The notes beneath the pieces were generated by a model. That model was given only the letters and a program-made list of their open reading frames with translations. It was not told the origin of the DNA and searched no databases. From assembly GCA_018268315.1 (NCBI GenBank), contig JAFDWU010000003.1, forward strand, positions 1-64,000: a stretch of 64,000 nt of DNA, read 5' to 3'. This document shows, one piece after another, positions 25,472-32,736 of the stretch (position 1 is the stretch's first letter; every line of letters starts with the position of its first letter). This DNA is from Armatimonadota bacterium (GTDB taxonomy: Bacteria; Armatimonadota; Fimbriimonadia; Fimbriimonadales; Fimbriimonadaceae). The translations under genes were made by a program, and so were the position numbers.

Positions 25472-25475
<4 letters not shown>

Positions 25476-25801
25476 ACCTCGAAATACAGGTGCCGGTGAT
25501 TGCGGCACCCTGGGTTAAAGCCTGCCTGGCAGGCTGGACACTGTGTGCCATCGGCGAGGTACTCGTTGATTGAGAACCTGTGGCCGCACTTGCCGCACAG
25601 CAGGGCTTCCGATTCAAATTGGGCTTTGGGCCACAGCTGTGCGGGGTGATCGGCGATGGCATCGTGGCATTCGCGGCAGGAATAGAATTCGCCGCAGCAG
25701 TGGAATTGGATTGCTAGGATGTCGGACGGCCCGTGGTAGTGCTGACAGCGAGTCTCGCCGTCAACCTCGATTCCTCGTACCGTGATTCTGCTGGATTCCA
25801 T
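25472..25801 (-). CDS. CHY zinc-finger protein
   Basis: 109 residues with the CHY-type ligand series: CQHYHGPSDILAIQF, then CCGEFYSCRECHD, followed by CGKCGHRF, CPACQAGFNPGC and a final His pair. It binds several zinc ions and probably acts in redox or protein-quality pathways; its partner is unknown. Single gene, transcribed from the intergenic region shared divergently with the MerC-like gene. Confidence 0.9.
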
Positions 25802-25850
25802 AAACCGTACTGTAACAAGCAGCCCGCAGGCCGCGTCTTAATAGATACGA

Positions 25851-25874
25851 TACCCCCAGGGGGTAGTGTATACT
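25851..25874 (+). promoter_or_regulatory. CsoR-type palindrome and -10 box before the MerC-like gene
   Basis: TACCCCCAGGGGGTA (25851-25865) is a perfect palindrome with 7-bp arms, like operators of the CsoR/RcnR metal-sensor family. A -10 box TATACT (25869-25874) begins 4 nt after it. The ATG lies only 11 nt after the -10, so the transcript would have almost no leader. No csoR-like gene is in the window. Confidence 0.6.
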
Positions 25875-25885
25875 AGATTTCAAGC

Positions 25886-26401
25886 ATGCCGATCCTTGCC
25901 CGCGCCCATAAGTTTGACCTTGACCGCATTGGAGCGGTGGCCAGCTTCATTTGCGCGGTGCACTGCCTCCTTTCGGGGCTTCTCCTCGGTCTGCTAGCTA
26001 TCCTCGGCGTTGGGTTCATCGGAAATCCGCTCGTCGATTGGATCTTCATCAGCGTGGCAGTGATGGTCGGTCTCGGCGCAGTCTGGGACGGCCATCGTCA
26101 CCACCACTCTTGGAAACCCGCCGCGCTGTTTATTGGCGGACTGGCGAGCATCCTCATTTCTCACACGGTCTTTAACCATGTTCACGCCGCGAATCAGCCG
26201 CTGGATGCGGATGCGATCTTCAGCACCGTCTTCGCGGTGGCTGGCGGATTGATGCTGGTCTCATTCCACTTCGTGAACCGGCGGATGCACAAGGCGTCGC
26301 ACTGCGTATGCGACGAGCCCATTGTGCCAAAAGAAAAGAGTCCAGCGAATGTCTCGCTGAACTCTTCAGAGCCTGTGGTGAGAACCGAAGTTCTTAGGTG
26401 A
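25886..26401 (+). CDS. MerC-domain membrane protein, probable metal transporter
   Basis: 171 residues with four membrane segments. The first carries a Cys and a His close together (ASFICAVHCLLSGLLLGLL), as in MerC-type mercury or metal uptake proteins. A His-rich loop HRHHHS follows segment two, and the soluble tail contains CVCDEP, so metal handling is plausible. No Shine-Dalgarno precedes the ATG, which fits the near-leaderless promoter. The palindrome upstream points to control by a copper, nickel or sulfur sensor. Ends in an 8-nt overlap with convergent dnaN. Confidence 0.75.
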   Translation: MPILARAHKFDLDRIGAVASFICAVHCLLSGLLLGLLAILGVGFIGNPLVDWIFISVAVMVGLGAVWDGHRHHHSWKPAALFIGGLASILISHTVFNHVHAANQPLDADAIFSTVFAVAGGLMLVSFHFVNRRMHKASHCVCDEPIVPKEKSPANVSLNSSEPVVRTEVLR

Positions 26402-27506: not shown

Positions 27507-27797
27507 CTAACCCTGTAAGGGTAAATGATATTGCAGATAGGAGGGAGCTTGCCGTCTCGGCTCGAACTCCACCCCTTGGGAGTAAATCTTCATAAGAACG
27601 CGTTGGTAGCTTTCCTCGGTGAAGTCGACTCCGCCTTGGTTTCGCAGCACATCGACCGTGCTGCGGAGGCTTTCCATATCTTGTTTCAACGCCGGATCTT
27701 TCTCCGCATATGCGAGGAGATCTTCCTCAAGCTCTTTGCCGAGTTCTCGACCGGCGTATAGGTCTACCAGTTTCGTATAAAAGTCTCGTTCATTCAT
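27507..27797 (-). CDS. Small protein coupled to the ECF sigma gene, possible anti-sigma factor
   Basis: 96 residues, soluble, with helices LVDLYAGRELGKELEEDLLAYAEKDP and DMESLRSTVDVLRNQ. The first 60 residues resemble the N-terminal helical region of anti-sigma factors, but the zinc His-Cys motif and a membrane segment are absent. Its ATG overlaps the sigma gene stop by 4 nt, so equimolar production is likely. The anti-sigma role is inferred from position and shape only. Confidence 0.6.
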   Translation of the reverse strand: MNERDFYTKLVDLYAGRELGKELEEDLLAYAEKDPALKQDMESLRSTVDVLRNQGGVDFTEESYQRVLMKIYSQGVEFEPRRQAPSYLQYHLPLQG

Positions 27798-28372
27798 TGG
27801 ATCCTCTCCATGGTTCCTCCTAGCTTCTCGCGGAGTGCTTTACGTCCTCTGTACAGCCTCGATTTCAGTGCCGGAACACTGATTTTGAGTACCTCCGCAG
27901 CTTCTCTAGCGGCCATATCCTCAAGATCACAGAGTACAAGCGGTTCCCGATACTCCACCGGGAGCTCCGCCAGTGCCTGCTGGACCGTAATGCGAAGAGT
28001 GGCCTTGTCCTCTCCGCCGGAATACTGAGCGTCAGGGGGCAACTCCATAAGCCGGTGCTGCCGCAGTTTGTCGATACACAAGTTGCGAGCGATACGAAAG
28101 AGCCACGTTCTGAAAGCTCCATCTGCCCGTAACTCGGCCGAGCGCCTGAGAACCCGCAAGAATGTATCTGCGGTTGCGTCTTCGGCGTCCGAACGGTTGC
28201 CCAACATCCGATAGCAATATCGGAAGATGCGTTCGCCGTAAAGCTCGTACAGGTGACCCAAAGCCTGGGGATCGCCCTGTGCAAGGGCGTTGAGCCAGCG
28301 CTTTTCAGCCATGCTGTTTTGTGCGTTCTGCGTAGCATCTGTAGGCATAGGAAAGACGCGGTTGCCGCGCAT
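27794..28372 (-). CDS. RNA polymerase sigma factor, ECF family
   Basis: 192 residues. Region 2 shows ALGHLYELYGERIFRYCYRM and SDAEDATADTFLRV, continuing into RTWLFRIARNLCIDKLR. Region 4 shows LAELPVEYREPLVLCDLEDM, then AAREAAEVLKISVPALKSRLYRGRKAL, the DNA-binding helix-turn-helix. No Shine-Dalgarno precedes the ATG at 28372; ATG 28348 is an alternative start. The regulon cannot be deduced. The upstream MbnP-MbnH set and downstream dnaN are candidates by position. Confidence 0.92.
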   Translation of the reverse strand: MRGNRVFPMPTDATQNAQNSMAEKRWLNALAQGDPQALGHLYELYGERIFRYCYRMLGNRSDAEDATADTFLRVLRRSAELRADGAFRTWLFRIARNLCIDKLRQHRLMELPPDAQYSGGEDKATLRITVQQALAELPVEYREPLVLCDLEDMAAREAAEVLKISVPALKSRLYRGRKALREKLGGTMERIQ

Positions 28373-28470: not shown

Positions 28471-30213
28471 TCATTGAGTGTCCTTGAACTCAAAATCAGG
28501 CTCGTTCAAGGTGTTGAGGAATGCAATCAGCGCCTTTTTCTGGTGTGGGCTCAGCCGGATTCCCTCAACGGGGTGTTTCGCGATATTTGGATCAAGATTT
28601 GCGTTTTGCGAAATATGTTCGCTGTAATGATCGATCACTTCCTGAAGGGTTTTGAAGCGTCCGTCGTGCATGTAGGGCCCAGATAGAGCCAAATTGCGAA
28701 GGGAAGGGGTCTTAAACTTGCCGATATCGGTTTGCCTTCCGGTGGCGCGGGCTCGCCCCTCATCCTTTGTTGGCCTTAGGCCGTTGTCGTGAAAGGCGTA
28801 ATCACTGAAAAGATTGCCGCCGTGGCAATGGAAGCAGTCGGCGCCCCGTTTGCCTCTTGCCGGATCGAATTCCGTGATGAAGAGCACGAGCCCTTCTTTT
28901 TCAAGATCGCTCAGCGTGGCTTGATCGCGTCTCGCTTGGTCGAATTTGGAGTCGCCGCTGACCCTGGTGAGCAGGAACTGCTCCAGAGCGAGACTAACCC
29001 TCTCTGCGGTGATGCCCGGTGAGCCGAAGGCTTCCTTGAATTCTTCGCGATAGGTTCTGAGCTCGTTTAGGCGCTGCACGACCTCGCCCAGCGTCAGATT
29101 CATCTCGTGCTTATCTTGAATGGGGGCGAGCGCTTGATCTCGGAGCCTCGTTCTCCGTCCATCCCATGTGTAGAACTTTGACCAGGCAAGATTGAACAAA
29201 GGTGGCGCTTTGCGCGTCCCTTTCGTGCCGTCATCGCCCCGGCTGACCGGGTGGCCGCCATCGCTGTACGCAAACTCGGAACGGTGGCAGTTAATGCAAG
29301 CGGCGCGGCGGTTGCGCGAGAGAATGGGATCCCAGAACAAGCGGTGCCCAAGGCGCACGCCTTCCACCGTTAAAGGGTTATCAAGGGGCAGGCTGGGCTG
29401 AGGGAAGCCGTCGGGCATTTCCATCTCGTAGGCATGGGTTCCTGTCGGCAGCGGCATCGCCTTCGGCGTGGCTGGCTGCGAGTTCAGCGCCTCTGACCGA
29501 ACAAAAGAAAATGAGTGAGCGATATTCTGGGTCAGCAGCTTCGCGAGAGGGTCATCCTTTGCCGAATGGGTGGAGGCTTGGTCATCGCCTTTCCCAAGAT
29601 ATACGCCTCGCATCACCTTGGCGAGGTCTTGAGAAAGCACCACCGATTGCCCGCTTGCGGCAGAAATCGGAAGGGTTACGCGCATCAAATTCGGGTCGTT
29701 GGCCACGTGATAAACGAAGCCGCTTAGCCGCGAGCCGGGCTGCTCCCACTTGCCTTCGGTAGCAGAGAAGATGTAGCCGCCCTGCCAGCCCCAGTGCATG
29801 GCGTTTACGGTTGGATTCAAGGGGTCGTTCGGGCCGCGCTTAGAAGGGTCCGAGTGATTCAAAGCAGGCGGTACACCCACATTAAAAGAGAGTTGCTTCC
29901 AGTTCTTCCCCTCGGGAACCTCTAGCCGGCACGTGTCCGCGCCATCCTGGGGGTTCAGGTAGCAAACGGTGTCAACCGAAACCGAATGCCCATCGTCCGA
30001 TTGAAGCTGAAAACCGGAGAGAAGAAGTGAGTTGCGCGTAAAGCCGACCATCGCCCCTGCGGCGGAATATCGCACATCTCCCCACTCGACGGCCTTGCCA
30101 TCAAATGTTTGCTGCAGGCGCAGATTCAAAACCCCCGGAGAGGGCTGCTTAACAAAGCCAAGCGCAATGCCTGCGAGGGAAGCAAGGATTACGACTGGTC
30201 GAAGGGGAATCAT
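28471..30213 (-). CDS. MbnP-like domain fused to MbnH/MauG-like dihaem cytochrome c peroxidase
   Basis: 580 residues from ATG 30213, which begins a signal peptide (MIPLRPVVILASLAGIALGF); the frame is open further upstream but less plausible. Residues ~28-250 resemble MbnP, a periplasmic copper protein: paired Cys (VCYLNPQDGADTC) and the hallmark MHWGWQGGYIF. Residues ~270-575 are a dihaem peroxidase of the MauG/MbnH group with haem sites CINCH and CFHCH, plus the conserved FKTPSLRNLALSGPYMHDGRF. In methanotrophs MbnH oxidises a Trp of MbnP to make its copper site; here both are on one chain, so in cis modification is a reasonable inference. Follows the YHYH gene by 52 nt on the same strand. 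Confidence 0.85.
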   Translation of the reverse strand: MIPLRPVVILASLAGIALGFVKQPSPGVLNLRLQQTFDGKAVEWGDVRYSAAGAMVGFTRNSLLLSGFQLQSDDGHSVSVDTVCYLNPQDGADTCRLEVPEGKNWKQLSFNVGVPPALNHSDPSKRGPNDPLNPTVNAMHWGWQGGYIFSATEGKWEQPGSRLSGFVYHVANDPNLMRVTLPISAASGQSVVLSQDLAKVMRGVYLGKGDDQASTHSAKDDPLAKLLTQNIAHSFSFVRSEALNSQPATPKAMPLPTGTHAYEMEMPDGFPQPSLPLDNPLTVEGVRLGHRLFWDPILSRNRRAACINCHRSEFAYSDGGHPVSRGDDGTKGTRKAPPLFNLAWSKFYTWDGRRTRLRDQALAPIQDKHEMNLTLGEVVQRLNELRTYREEFKEAFGSPGITAERVSLALEQFLLTRVSGDSKFDQARRDQATLSDLEKEGLVLFITEFDPARGKRGADCFHCHGGNLFSDYAFHDNGLRPTKDEGRARATGRQTDIGKFKTPSLRNLALSGPYMHDGRFKTLQEVIDHYSEHISQNANLDPNIAKHPVEGIRLSPHQKKALIAFLNTLNEPDFEFKDTQ

Positions 30214-30265
30214 GGGGTTCACCAAGTTGTGGGCAGCCTTCGCTGCCCACAACTGATTATTTACG

Positions 30266-31747
30266 CTACGGCAGATTTGAGCTGGGCCTGCCGGTGACGT
30301 CGTAAGGTTCGAGCGAGGTGAGGGTGATTCGGAATATCGCACTCGGCCCCGAATAACCGGCATCCGTATGGTAGATGGTCGTCAGCCCCGCGCTTCGCAG
30401 GTCCTGAGCCACCAGCACCCAGTTACCGGACGTGCCGTCCGAAGCCTCGATCTTATAGTGACCACCTTCCACCGAGCTGAAAGTGATCGCGATCTGCCCA
30501 CTACGAGTCAACCGCAGAATCTTCGTCGGCGAGAACGGGCCCGCGTTGCGCGCAAGGGTCACCACTTCCGTTAGCTTCTGCACGATGCCGCCAGAGGCTT
30601 CACCGAAGAACTGCCGACCGATCGTGTAAGGATAGGCGGGTGAGCCGTCGGGATTGATCGTCACGAAGTACGCATAGGTTCCGTTCGGATACTCCGGCGT
30701 CTTGCAGAATCGACCGTTGAACGGGTCAAGGTCGAAGTCTCGGCCAACCTGCCCACCAAGATCGCCAAGGAAGTCAAAGTCCTCCGTGTAAATTCCAAGC
30801 GGGTGGATTTGGTCGACATTCGGCCCGAACTGGTTCGGAGCAAGCTGCATCGCCACGTTGTGAAGCTGCGCAGCCCAGTGCCCCAACGAATGCCGTCCCG
30901 TAGCCGCCAGGTTGGTAGTTCCGAACTGGCCGTTGCGAAGGATGTACCCAGTGCGCATCCGAACGATCGGGCTCGTGGGGTCGTTCGGGTTAGCGAAGCC
31001 GTACGGCCCGTAGACCGGGTAGCCATCGTCTGCCCATCCAAGTATCTTGGAATGCCCGCCCAGGTTGGTTTCCAGATACTTGTGGGTCAGCGGATCGATT
31101 GCGACATGATCGCCCAACTGTGCGCGAAGCGCAACCGGGTTATCGTGATAGTGGTACTGGCCGCTTGGCGGTTGGTGAGCGTTGCCCGCGTCAAACGAGT
31201 TTGCTTCCGCGAGCACGGCATTGCGCCACCAAATCGCGCTCGGACGGTTCATCGAAGGCTCGTCGCGCATGGTTTGGCTGTTCCAGGCGAAGGTGTCCAG
31301 CATGTTGAACATCGCCACCCCGTTCACCCACAGTCCCTGCGCGCCGCCACCCGTCAACTGATGCTGAGTGGCCGGACGCGGAGAGCGCGAAAAGCGCATC
31401 ATCAGGTTCTGGTTGCTGGGCCAGTTCCCGAGAACGTGCTGCACGTCTACATACCACGGGCCCATTTGATGGCTGGCAAGGCCGGTTGCGAGAACGTAGA
31501 TCCAGCCTGCCGAATATCCCACCTGCTGTACATCGCTGTAAGCAGGAAGCGTCTGCCCGCCGCCGAAGTTCGGCAAGTCGGGCGAGGGCCAAGTGGTGGT
31601 TGGCTGTCCGCCACGAACCTGCACAACCCGGGCGTACCGCCCCGATAGCATCGTGTACCAGCTATCGATCTGCGGGTTCGGGATCGTTTGCGCGCACGCC
31701 GCGAACGGCGCCAAGCTGCCGACGAGAATGAGATTTAGGTGCTTCAT
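30266..31747 (-). CDS. Secreted YHYH-domain protein
   Basis: 493 residues from ATG 31747, which has GAGGAG upstream and starts a signal peptide (MKHLNLILVGSLAPFAACAQ). The YHYH motif is in PPSGQYHYHDNPVAL, followed by GHSKILGWADDGYPVYGPYGF, both hallmarks of the family. A C-terminal ~90-residue beta domain (RLTRSGQIAITFSSVEGGHY) looks like a cell-surface or sugar-binding module. The biochemical role is unknown. It sits between a Spy-like protein and the MbnP-MbnH fusion, which suggests metal or redox work outside the cytoplasm. Confidence 0.82.
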   Translation of the reverse strand: MKHLNLILVGSLAPFAACAQTIPNPQIDSWYTMLSGRYARVVQVRGGQPTTTWPSPDLPNFGGGQTLPAYSDVQQVGYSAGWIYVLATGLASHQMGPWYVDVQHVLGNWPSNQNLMMRFSRSPRPATQHQLTGGGAQGLWVNGVAMFNMLDTFAWNSQTMRDEPSMNRPSAIWWRNAVLAEANSFDAGNAHQPPSGQYHYHDNPVALRAQLGDHVAIDPLTHKYLETNLGGHSKILGWADDGYPVYGPYGFANPNDPTSPIVRMRTGYILRNGQFGTTNLAATGRHSLGHWAAQLHNVAMQLAPNQFGPNVDQIHPLGIYTEDFDFLGDLGGQVGRDFDLDPFNGRFCKTPEYPNGTYAYFVTINPDGSPAYPYTIGRQFFGEASGGIVQKLTEVVTLARNAGPFSPTKILRLTRSGQIAITFSSVEGGHYKIEASDGTSGNWVLVAQDLRSAGLTTIYHTDAGYSGPSAIFRITLTSLEPYDVTGRPSSNLP

Positions 31748-31776: not shown

Positions 31777-32736
31777 TCAAACTCTTGGGGGAGGGCCGTC
31801 GGGGCCATCGCCTCCGGGTCCACCGCCAGGGCCGCCTTGGCCACCAGGACCTCCTTGGCCGCCAGGCCCACCCTGGCCACCAGGTCCACCTTGGCCGGGA
31901 CCGCCAGGTCCCATGGGCCGCATCTGCTGCTCACGCGCCTCAAACGTCTTGCGCTGAGCGTCGGTGAGGATGGCAAGGAACTTCTCGCGCAGGCCGCCCT
32001 GGGAGGATGCTCGGCTGGTTGCGCCGAACTGACCGTTCTGAGCGGCGTTAAACGCCTGCTGGTCGGACTCCTTGGAGCCGTGCAAGGCAAGCTCATAAAT
32101 CTTCGCCTTCTGGTCCGCGCTCAGGCCGACCTCGAAGATGAAGCCGGGAACTCGCGCATTTCGAAGGGCGGGAAGGGCTTTCAGCAGCTTATCTGCCTCA
32201 GTTCGCTGGCCTTCCGTGAGCAGGTTTCGGATTTCGGCGTCAGCAGCCTTCTCCTTCTGCATCATCTGGCTGTTCATTCCCGGCCCGCCCTGGCCGCGAC
32301 GTCCCTGGCCACCGCCGGGTCCGCCTTGTCCCTGAGGACCGCCGCGTCGCCCTTGTCCGCCCTGTCCTCCGGGACCACCTTGGCCGCCCATCTGGGGTCC
32401 GCCCTGACCGCCAGGACCGCCTTGACCTTGCGGTCCACCCATTCCGGGGCCGCCTCGGAAGCCGATCTTGGATTGGATCGCCTGGATCTGCTTCTCCTGA
32501 TCGTCGCTGAGTTCAAGCACCGCTTTCAGAAGCCGCGCCGGAGTGCGGGCGAGGGAAGGCTTGCCCATTCCCATACGGGGGCCGCCACCCTGCGGGCCGC
32601 CAGGACCGCCGCCTTGCGGTCCACCCTGGCCGCCTCCCGGAGGGCCATCCTGCGGGCCCTGAGCAAATAGTGCCGAAGCCATGACGAGCGCAAGCGCTAC
32701 TGCCTGCGCGGTGCTAAATCGAGTGATCTTAATCAT
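31777..32736 (-). CDS. Secreted Gly/Pro/Gln-rich protein with Spy-like LTxxQ motifs
   Basis: 319 residues with a signal peptide (TAQAVALALVMASALFAQ). Three low-complexity GGPGGQGG tracts (about residues 26-55, 95-155 and 285-312) separate helical parts. The helical parts carry four LTxxQ-type motifs: LSDDQEKQI, LTEGQRTEA, LSADQKAKI and LTDAQRKTF. That motif is typical of Spy/CpxP periplasmic chaperones and related metal sensors. The Gly-rich tracts could act as flexible spacers. First gene of the three-gene minus-strand set with YHYH and MbnP-MbnH. Confidence 0.75.
   Translation of the reverse strand: MIKITRFSTAQAVALALVMASALFAQGPQDGPPGGGQGGPQGGGPGGPQGGGPRMGMGKPSLARTPARLLKAVLELSDDQEKQIQAIQSKIGFRGGPGMGGPQGQGGPGGQGGPQMGGQGGPGGQGGQGRRGGPQGQGGPGGGQGRRGQGGPGMNSQMMQKEKAADAEIRNLLTEGQRTEADKLLKALPALRNARVPGFIFEVGLSADQKAKIYELALHGSKESDQQAFNAAQNGQFGATSRASSQGGLREKFLAILTDAQRKTFEAREQQMRPMGPGGPGQGGPGGQGGPGGQGGPGGQGGPGGGPGGDGPDGPPPRV
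31795..31912 (-). repeat. Low-complexity GGPGGQGG-coding repeat tract
   Basis: Imperfect tandem units built from GGCCACCAGG/GGCCGCCAGG-like blocks, coding for Gly-Gly-Pro-Gly-Gly-Gln near the C-terminus of the Spy-like protein. Similar tracts lie at about 32270-32450 and 32575-32660. They are slippage-prone and may vary in length between strains. Confidence 0.6.

Follow-up and report, generated by a model that had tools for sequence, protein, structure and literature searches.

A single-chain variant of the MbnP/MbnH pair, probably exported, in Armatimonadota and Verrucomicrobiota

One gene in the window (the whole stretch of 64,000 nucleotides of Armatimonadota DNA that was analysed) encodes an MbnP domain and a MauG-type di-haem peroxidase domain in one polypeptide of 580 residues. 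The fusion is genuine, its two domains had been identified correctly, and it is a variant of the known MbnP/MbnH pair. Our analyses make it probable that the protein is a self-contained, exported pair that matures its own Cu(I) site and that serves copper acquisition, storage or protection together with a protein of the YHYH family. The gene, its domains and its haem-binding motifs are as follows.

28471–30213, minus strand: MbnP–MbnH fusion gene, 580 residues, defined by profile matches (38 distinct fusions overall)
30142–30213, minus strand: probable signal peptide, about residues 1–24, recognised by eye from the N-terminus MIPLRPVVILASLAGIALGF / MIPLRPVVILASLAGIALGFVKQP
29596–30129, minus strand: MbnP domain, residues 29–206 (PF20243, E 1.5e-26, 93.9 bits, cut-off 27)
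28921–29364, minus strand: di-haem peroxidase domain CCP_MauG, residues 284–431 (PF03150, E 8.8e-49, 166.4 bits)
29284–29298, minus strand: first c-type haem motif CINCH, residues 306–310 (first CxxCH motif in 38/38 fusions)
28822–28836, minus strand: second c-type haem motif CFHCH, residues 460–464 (invariant, 38/38 fusions)
28624–28626, minus strand: Tyr530, at the place of the MauG/MbnH-type Tyr haem ligand (invariant in alignment A1; motif in 37/38 fusions)

The earlier note on this DNA had given the coordinates of the gene exactly, but the strand needs to be corrected to minus. The plus strand of the interval is riddled with stops, and the minus strand is a single open frame of 580 residues. 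The possibility that a two-gene pair had been misread as one was rejected on account of this one open frame. The proposal that MbnP and an MbnH/MauG-type dihaem enzyme are joined in a single protein was borne out by the PF20243 and PF03150 matches within the frame. In particular, the N-terminal 220 residues, on which this proposal hinged, were found to match MbnP over residues 29–206, and the motifs that had been cited were located at residues 139–147 (MHWGWQGGY), 306–310 (CINCH) and 460–464 (CFHCH). The N-terminus looks like a signal peptide, and the protein is probably exported. The fusion gene is present in a single copy and is the sole CCP_MauG match in its genome, which also contains cytochrome c assembly genes. 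No mau genes for methylamine dehydrogenase were found among the neighbours examined.

The best match of the protein by sequence among solved structures was MbnH (6e1c, E 6.7e-40). Besides the two haem motifs, the C-terminal half contains Tyr530, which is located at the position of MauG Tyr294, a Tyr instead of a Met at the second haem. Likewise, W350, Q360, P364 and E370 share the spacing of MauG Trp93, Gln103, Pro107 and Glu113. The MbnP half was more difficult to relate to solved structures: a sequence search with the N-terminal part alone gave no match, and a profile (A3) of this part was required to match MbnP (7l6g, E 1.4e-25). Both domains were matched in 15/15 fused proteins tested. At the same time, the protein missed the equivalog cut-offs of TIGR04052 for MbnP (45.7 bits, cut-off 140), TIGR04039 for MbnH (202.8 bits, cut-off 362.85) and TIGR03791 for MauG (200.4 bits, cut-off 443.85), the MauG score being nearly equal to the MbnH score. 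Two Bacteroidota-type two-gene pairs that were tested were likewise under the MbnP and MbnH cut-offs. Since Burkholderiales pairs used as controls pass easily (265–296 bits for MbnP and 467–475 bits for MbnH), the fused protein represents a divergent branch and not a textbook MbnP or MbnH.

The divergence of the MbnP half concerns the residues that are expected to form the copper site.

29785–29793, minus strand: W141-x-W143 motif, predicted Trp oxidation site (both Trp residues in 37/37 aligned fused rows)
29794–29796, minus strand: His140, directly before WxW (His in 36/37 fused rows; Phe or Ala in Burkholderiales pairs)
29707–29709, minus strand: His169, predicted copper ligand 1 (37/37 fused, 9/9 Burkholderiales and 63/72 other split rows)
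29566–29568, minus strand: His216 of THS, predicted copper ligand 2 (His in 37/37 fused rows)

The copper site of canonical MbnP reportedly consists of a His, a Met and a kynurenine that derives from the first Trp. We take the Met ligand to be the Met of an aligned GCMS motif, an assignment based on its conservation, and His216 aligns with this Met, which is found in 9/9 Burkholderiales rows. When the fused protein was inspected for the His and Met ligand set, His169 was present and the Met was replaced by His216. The canonical four-Cys pattern is also absent from fused MbnP. As judged from the alignments, fused MbnP is a divergent HWxW...THS type and not the canonical four-Cys/Met type, and the apparent Met-to-His exchange is a trait of the clade. 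HWxW and the invariant THS His together predict a His/His/kynurenine copper site as in CorA and MopE. If the canonical site is indeed His/Met/kynurenine, the fused clade would have exchanged Met for His and would now resemble these two proteins. Across the alignment, HWxW and the THS His seem strongly correlated by raw counts (63/0/9/33), but since these counts represent only 3–4 independent changes on the tree, we do not offer the coupling as proof. The WxW motif is present in 37/38 fusions. The exception (L122:283-2277) has an MbnP part without WxW that scores only 44.6 bits against MbnP, and its copper site is possibly dead.

An AlphaFold model of the whole two-domain chain of 580 residues reached a pLDDT of 90 and a pTM of 0.87 (78-row alignment). 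Its best fold match in the PDB was MbnH (6e1c), followed by MauG in complex with its substrate. The linker of the two domains (residues 243–275) is about 30 residues long, rich in Pro and variable among relatives in the alignment, and its blocks of 10 residues were predicted with pLDDT values of 84–94. A loose linker normally lowers the pTM. Therefore, the high pTM suggests that the two domains are held in a fixed arrangement, and the model makes it plausible that the enzyme acts on a Trp of its own chain. We infer that the fusion most likely serves such self-modification. Specifically, the N-terminal domain would be a copper-binding scaffold, while Trp141 is most likely oxidised to kynurenine by the dihaem domain of MauG type at the C-terminus, which would use peroxide or oxygen and would act either in its own chain or on a second copy. 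A Cu(I) site made up of His169, His216 and Kyn141 would thereby be completed, and outside the cytoplasm the protein would function in the acquisition or storage of copper or in protection, jointly with the YHYH protein that is encoded upstream.

The tight packing of the predicted structure could also be read in another way, namely as that of a stable copper-dihaem oxidoreductase. Electrons would move between the haems and the copper, for example to reduce Cu(II) to Cu(I) or to use peroxide, and the haem domain would be more than a one-time maturase. In a permanent 1:1 fusion each enzyme has a single substrate, which is unusual for an enzyme that catalyses maturation only, and the fusion has been retained across diverse Verrucomicrobiota. 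However, WxW would be less important for such an enzyme and is nonetheless retained in 37/38 fusions, and the same motifs occur in the nearest relatives, which are two-gene pairs. We therefore regard this role as rather unlikely. A similarly low probability is given to the combined proposal that a single chain oxidises its own Trp to build the His/His/kynurenine site and afterwards retains its haem domain as a working redox partner of the copper. Alternatively, the chain might be cut after export to yield a mature, separate pair as found elsewhere, and the Pro-rich, variable join of about 30 residues speaks for this. Yet the linker was predicted with high confidence and not as floppy, and the alignment shows no conserved cleavage motif. 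Cleavage after export thus seems unlikely, and slightly more so than a lasting role in electron transfer.

Directly upstream of the fusion gene, the window contains two features that deserve consideration.

30266–31747, minus strand: YHYH-family gene (PF14240, E 2e-38), conserved partner directly upstream of the fusion
30225–30254, minus strand: perfect 13-bp hairpin with a loop of 4, which takes up the greater part of the interval from the YHYH stop to the fusion start

In at least 11/38 fusions the gene directly upstream is a YHYH gene of the same strand, and in three more a YHYH gene lies nearby. The YHYH-family gene is the sole gene that is widely common to the flanks of the present fusion and of its long-flank relatives, and a YHYH gene of any kind was found in only 53/291 Armatimonadota genomes. 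In the family alignment (A4 numbering), His190, His198 and His200 are invariant, and His231 and Cys347 are nearly so. These residues, together with the position of the gene, would fit a dihaem domain whose target is a different protein, for example YHYH, and an MbnP part that serves as a docking or copper-sensing module. Against this view, many fusions are without YHYH in the flanks examined (e.g. L006, L007, L011 and L018), and we consider it improbable. Two unusual YHYH genes were observed in other loci: an open frame of 1323 residues with two YHYH domains upstream of a fusion (L009:288-4259), and a frame with a sulfatase-like N-terminus, as judged by eye, and a YHYH domain (L016:2477-5521), which is transcribed away from the kinase/regulator and fusion genes. 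The hairpin has an RNA folding z-score of -4.4 and is not followed by a T-run; regulation of the second gene and a weak terminator are both conceivable roles.

Several other neighbours were noted. Just upstream of the YHYH gene (31777–32736) lies a gene for an exported-looking Gly/Pro/Gln-rich protein with a weak CpxP/Spy-like match (LTXXQ, PF07813) that is under the cut-off. The stretch between the fusion and a dnaN-like gene contains an ECF sigma factor gene and then a small gene that overlaps it and possibly encodes its anti-sigma factor (27507–28372). A MerC-family gene (PF03203) is found at 25472–26401, and a CHY zinc-finger gene (PF05495) lies a few kilobases away on the opposite strand. 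The ECF sigma factor and Gly/Pro/Gln-rich neighbours are not shared with the second Armatimonadota genome that encodes a fusion (G174) or with three other loci checked. In six cases (G174, L016, L107, L112, L115 and L116) OmpR-type regulators adjoin the fusion. The G174 regulator scored highest against heavy-metal families (TIGR01387, 258.5 bits, under the cut-off of 279.2), as did the L016 kinase (TIGR01386, 238 bits, under the cut-off of 292.55). Such heavy-metal-type regulator or kinase genes beside some of the fusions weakly support a role in metal handling.

We found 38 distinct fusions, each with two CxxCH motifs and nearly all from Verrucomicrobiota. Although the present gene is a single copy in its genome, the recurrence of the same order, spacing and motifs in 38 distinct genes makes it extremely improbable that the frame is a pseudogene or an assembly error that joined two neighbours. 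Chance or misassembly as the source of the fusion was accordingly rejected, given this recurrence in independent genomes. When one genome per species was scanned, 14 full-length fusions were obtained, 13 of which were labelled Verrucomicrobia and one Sphaerotilus. In Verrucomicrobiota, MbnP was detected in 22/388 genomes and 25/26 of the genes were fused (one frameshifted gene being counted once); the sole unfused MbnP gene, from a Kiritimatiellae assembly, is broken up. The fused format is thus established and widespread in this one phylum. One fused gene (L118:1324-3034) is split by an apparent frameshift in its MbnH part, which reflects either a sequencing error or decay. A survey across Armatimonadota, as had been proposed in the earlier note, revealed MbnP in only 2/291 genomes; in both of these it is fused and preceded by a YHYH gene. 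The fusion as a general trait of Armatimonadota was rejected on the basis of this number.

The same note had described MbnP and MbnH as separate in known systems. This view holds for the sampled Bacteroidota and Burkholderiales, where the two are adjacent but separate genes, and not for Verrucomicrobiota, where fusion is the normal format. In Bacteroidota, MbnP was found in 67/248 genomes, and the open frames, at most 402 residues long except for one of 517, are too short for both domains; for a genome labelled Phycisphaerales (G298), the sample obtained for the phylum was this same one. In the Burkholderiales-type order, MbnP was found in 14/250 genomes and was fused only in the genome labelled Sphaerotilus. 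This fusion (L014:7665-9491, Pseudomonadota) is the sole one found outside Verrucomicrobiota and Armatimonadota, and it reflects either transfer or mis-binning. Most two-gene relatives have the gene order MbnP then MbnH. Bacteroidota-type clusters (L026, L028, L029, L031, L042, L045, L053 and L057) contain one MbnP with MHWGW followed by two different MbnH genes; in the clusters sampled for the tree (L026, L028, L029 and L031), the two enzymes belong to separate branches. On a Deinococcus grandis plasmid (L158:3989-6762), MbnP-like and dihaem genes are separate, with a gene annotated as copper resistance protein between them.

In an 88-row tree of the MbnH domain, a quick tree without bootstraps, all 37 fused rows fell on one side of a branch with an SH-aLRT value of 97, and the fused clade adjoins the Bacteroidota two-gene relatives. 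The two Armatimonadota genes are sisters (98) that are nested among Verrucomicrobia sequences. Since the fused enzymes form one clade, a single fusion event with later transfer fits best, and the simplest reading of the tree is that one such event was followed by transfer into the order of the present genome. The GC content of the fusion gene is unremarkable (0.569, compared to 0.564 for the window).

The encounter of MbnH with MbnP is hard to study as the two must meet, and a natural 1:1 fusion fixes the partner. A single construct could therefore reveal if kynurenine is formed intramolecularly and if it is required for copper. Moreover, the fused clade suggests a second ligand set for the MbnP family, His/His instead of His/Met, and the uncharacterised YHYH family is named as a partner in a likely copper context. 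No description of an MbnP–MbnH fusion was found in the literature searches made, although one may exist.

MauG, a dihaem protein that oxidises Trp residues of its partner, matches the fusion in sequence and fold; however, its substrate, methylamine dehydrogenase, is a separate protein. CorA and MopE have a copper site of two His residues and a Trp-derived kynurenine, and a dihaem peroxidase partner is encoded alongside (PMC3912023, PMC3423442). The fusion is like them in its predicted kynurenine/two-His site and its dihaem peroxidase, but in the CorA/CorB and MopE/SACCP systems of methanotrophs the partners are separate proteins. MbnP has no marked similarity to CorA or MopE (PMC3621798), and CorA or MopE* was matched neither among the best 50 fold matches listed nor in sequence searches of solved structures. 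The closest counterpart is the MbnP/MbnH pair (PF20243/TIGR04052, TIGR04039; 7l6g, 6e1c), with which the fusion has in common the two domains, WxW, the first copper His, two CxxCH motifs and the MauG-type Tyr. It differs from this pair in being one chain that scores below both NCBIfam equivalog cut-offs, in lacking the four-Cys pattern, and in two residues, His216, which stands where the canonical protein has a Met, and His140 before WxW.
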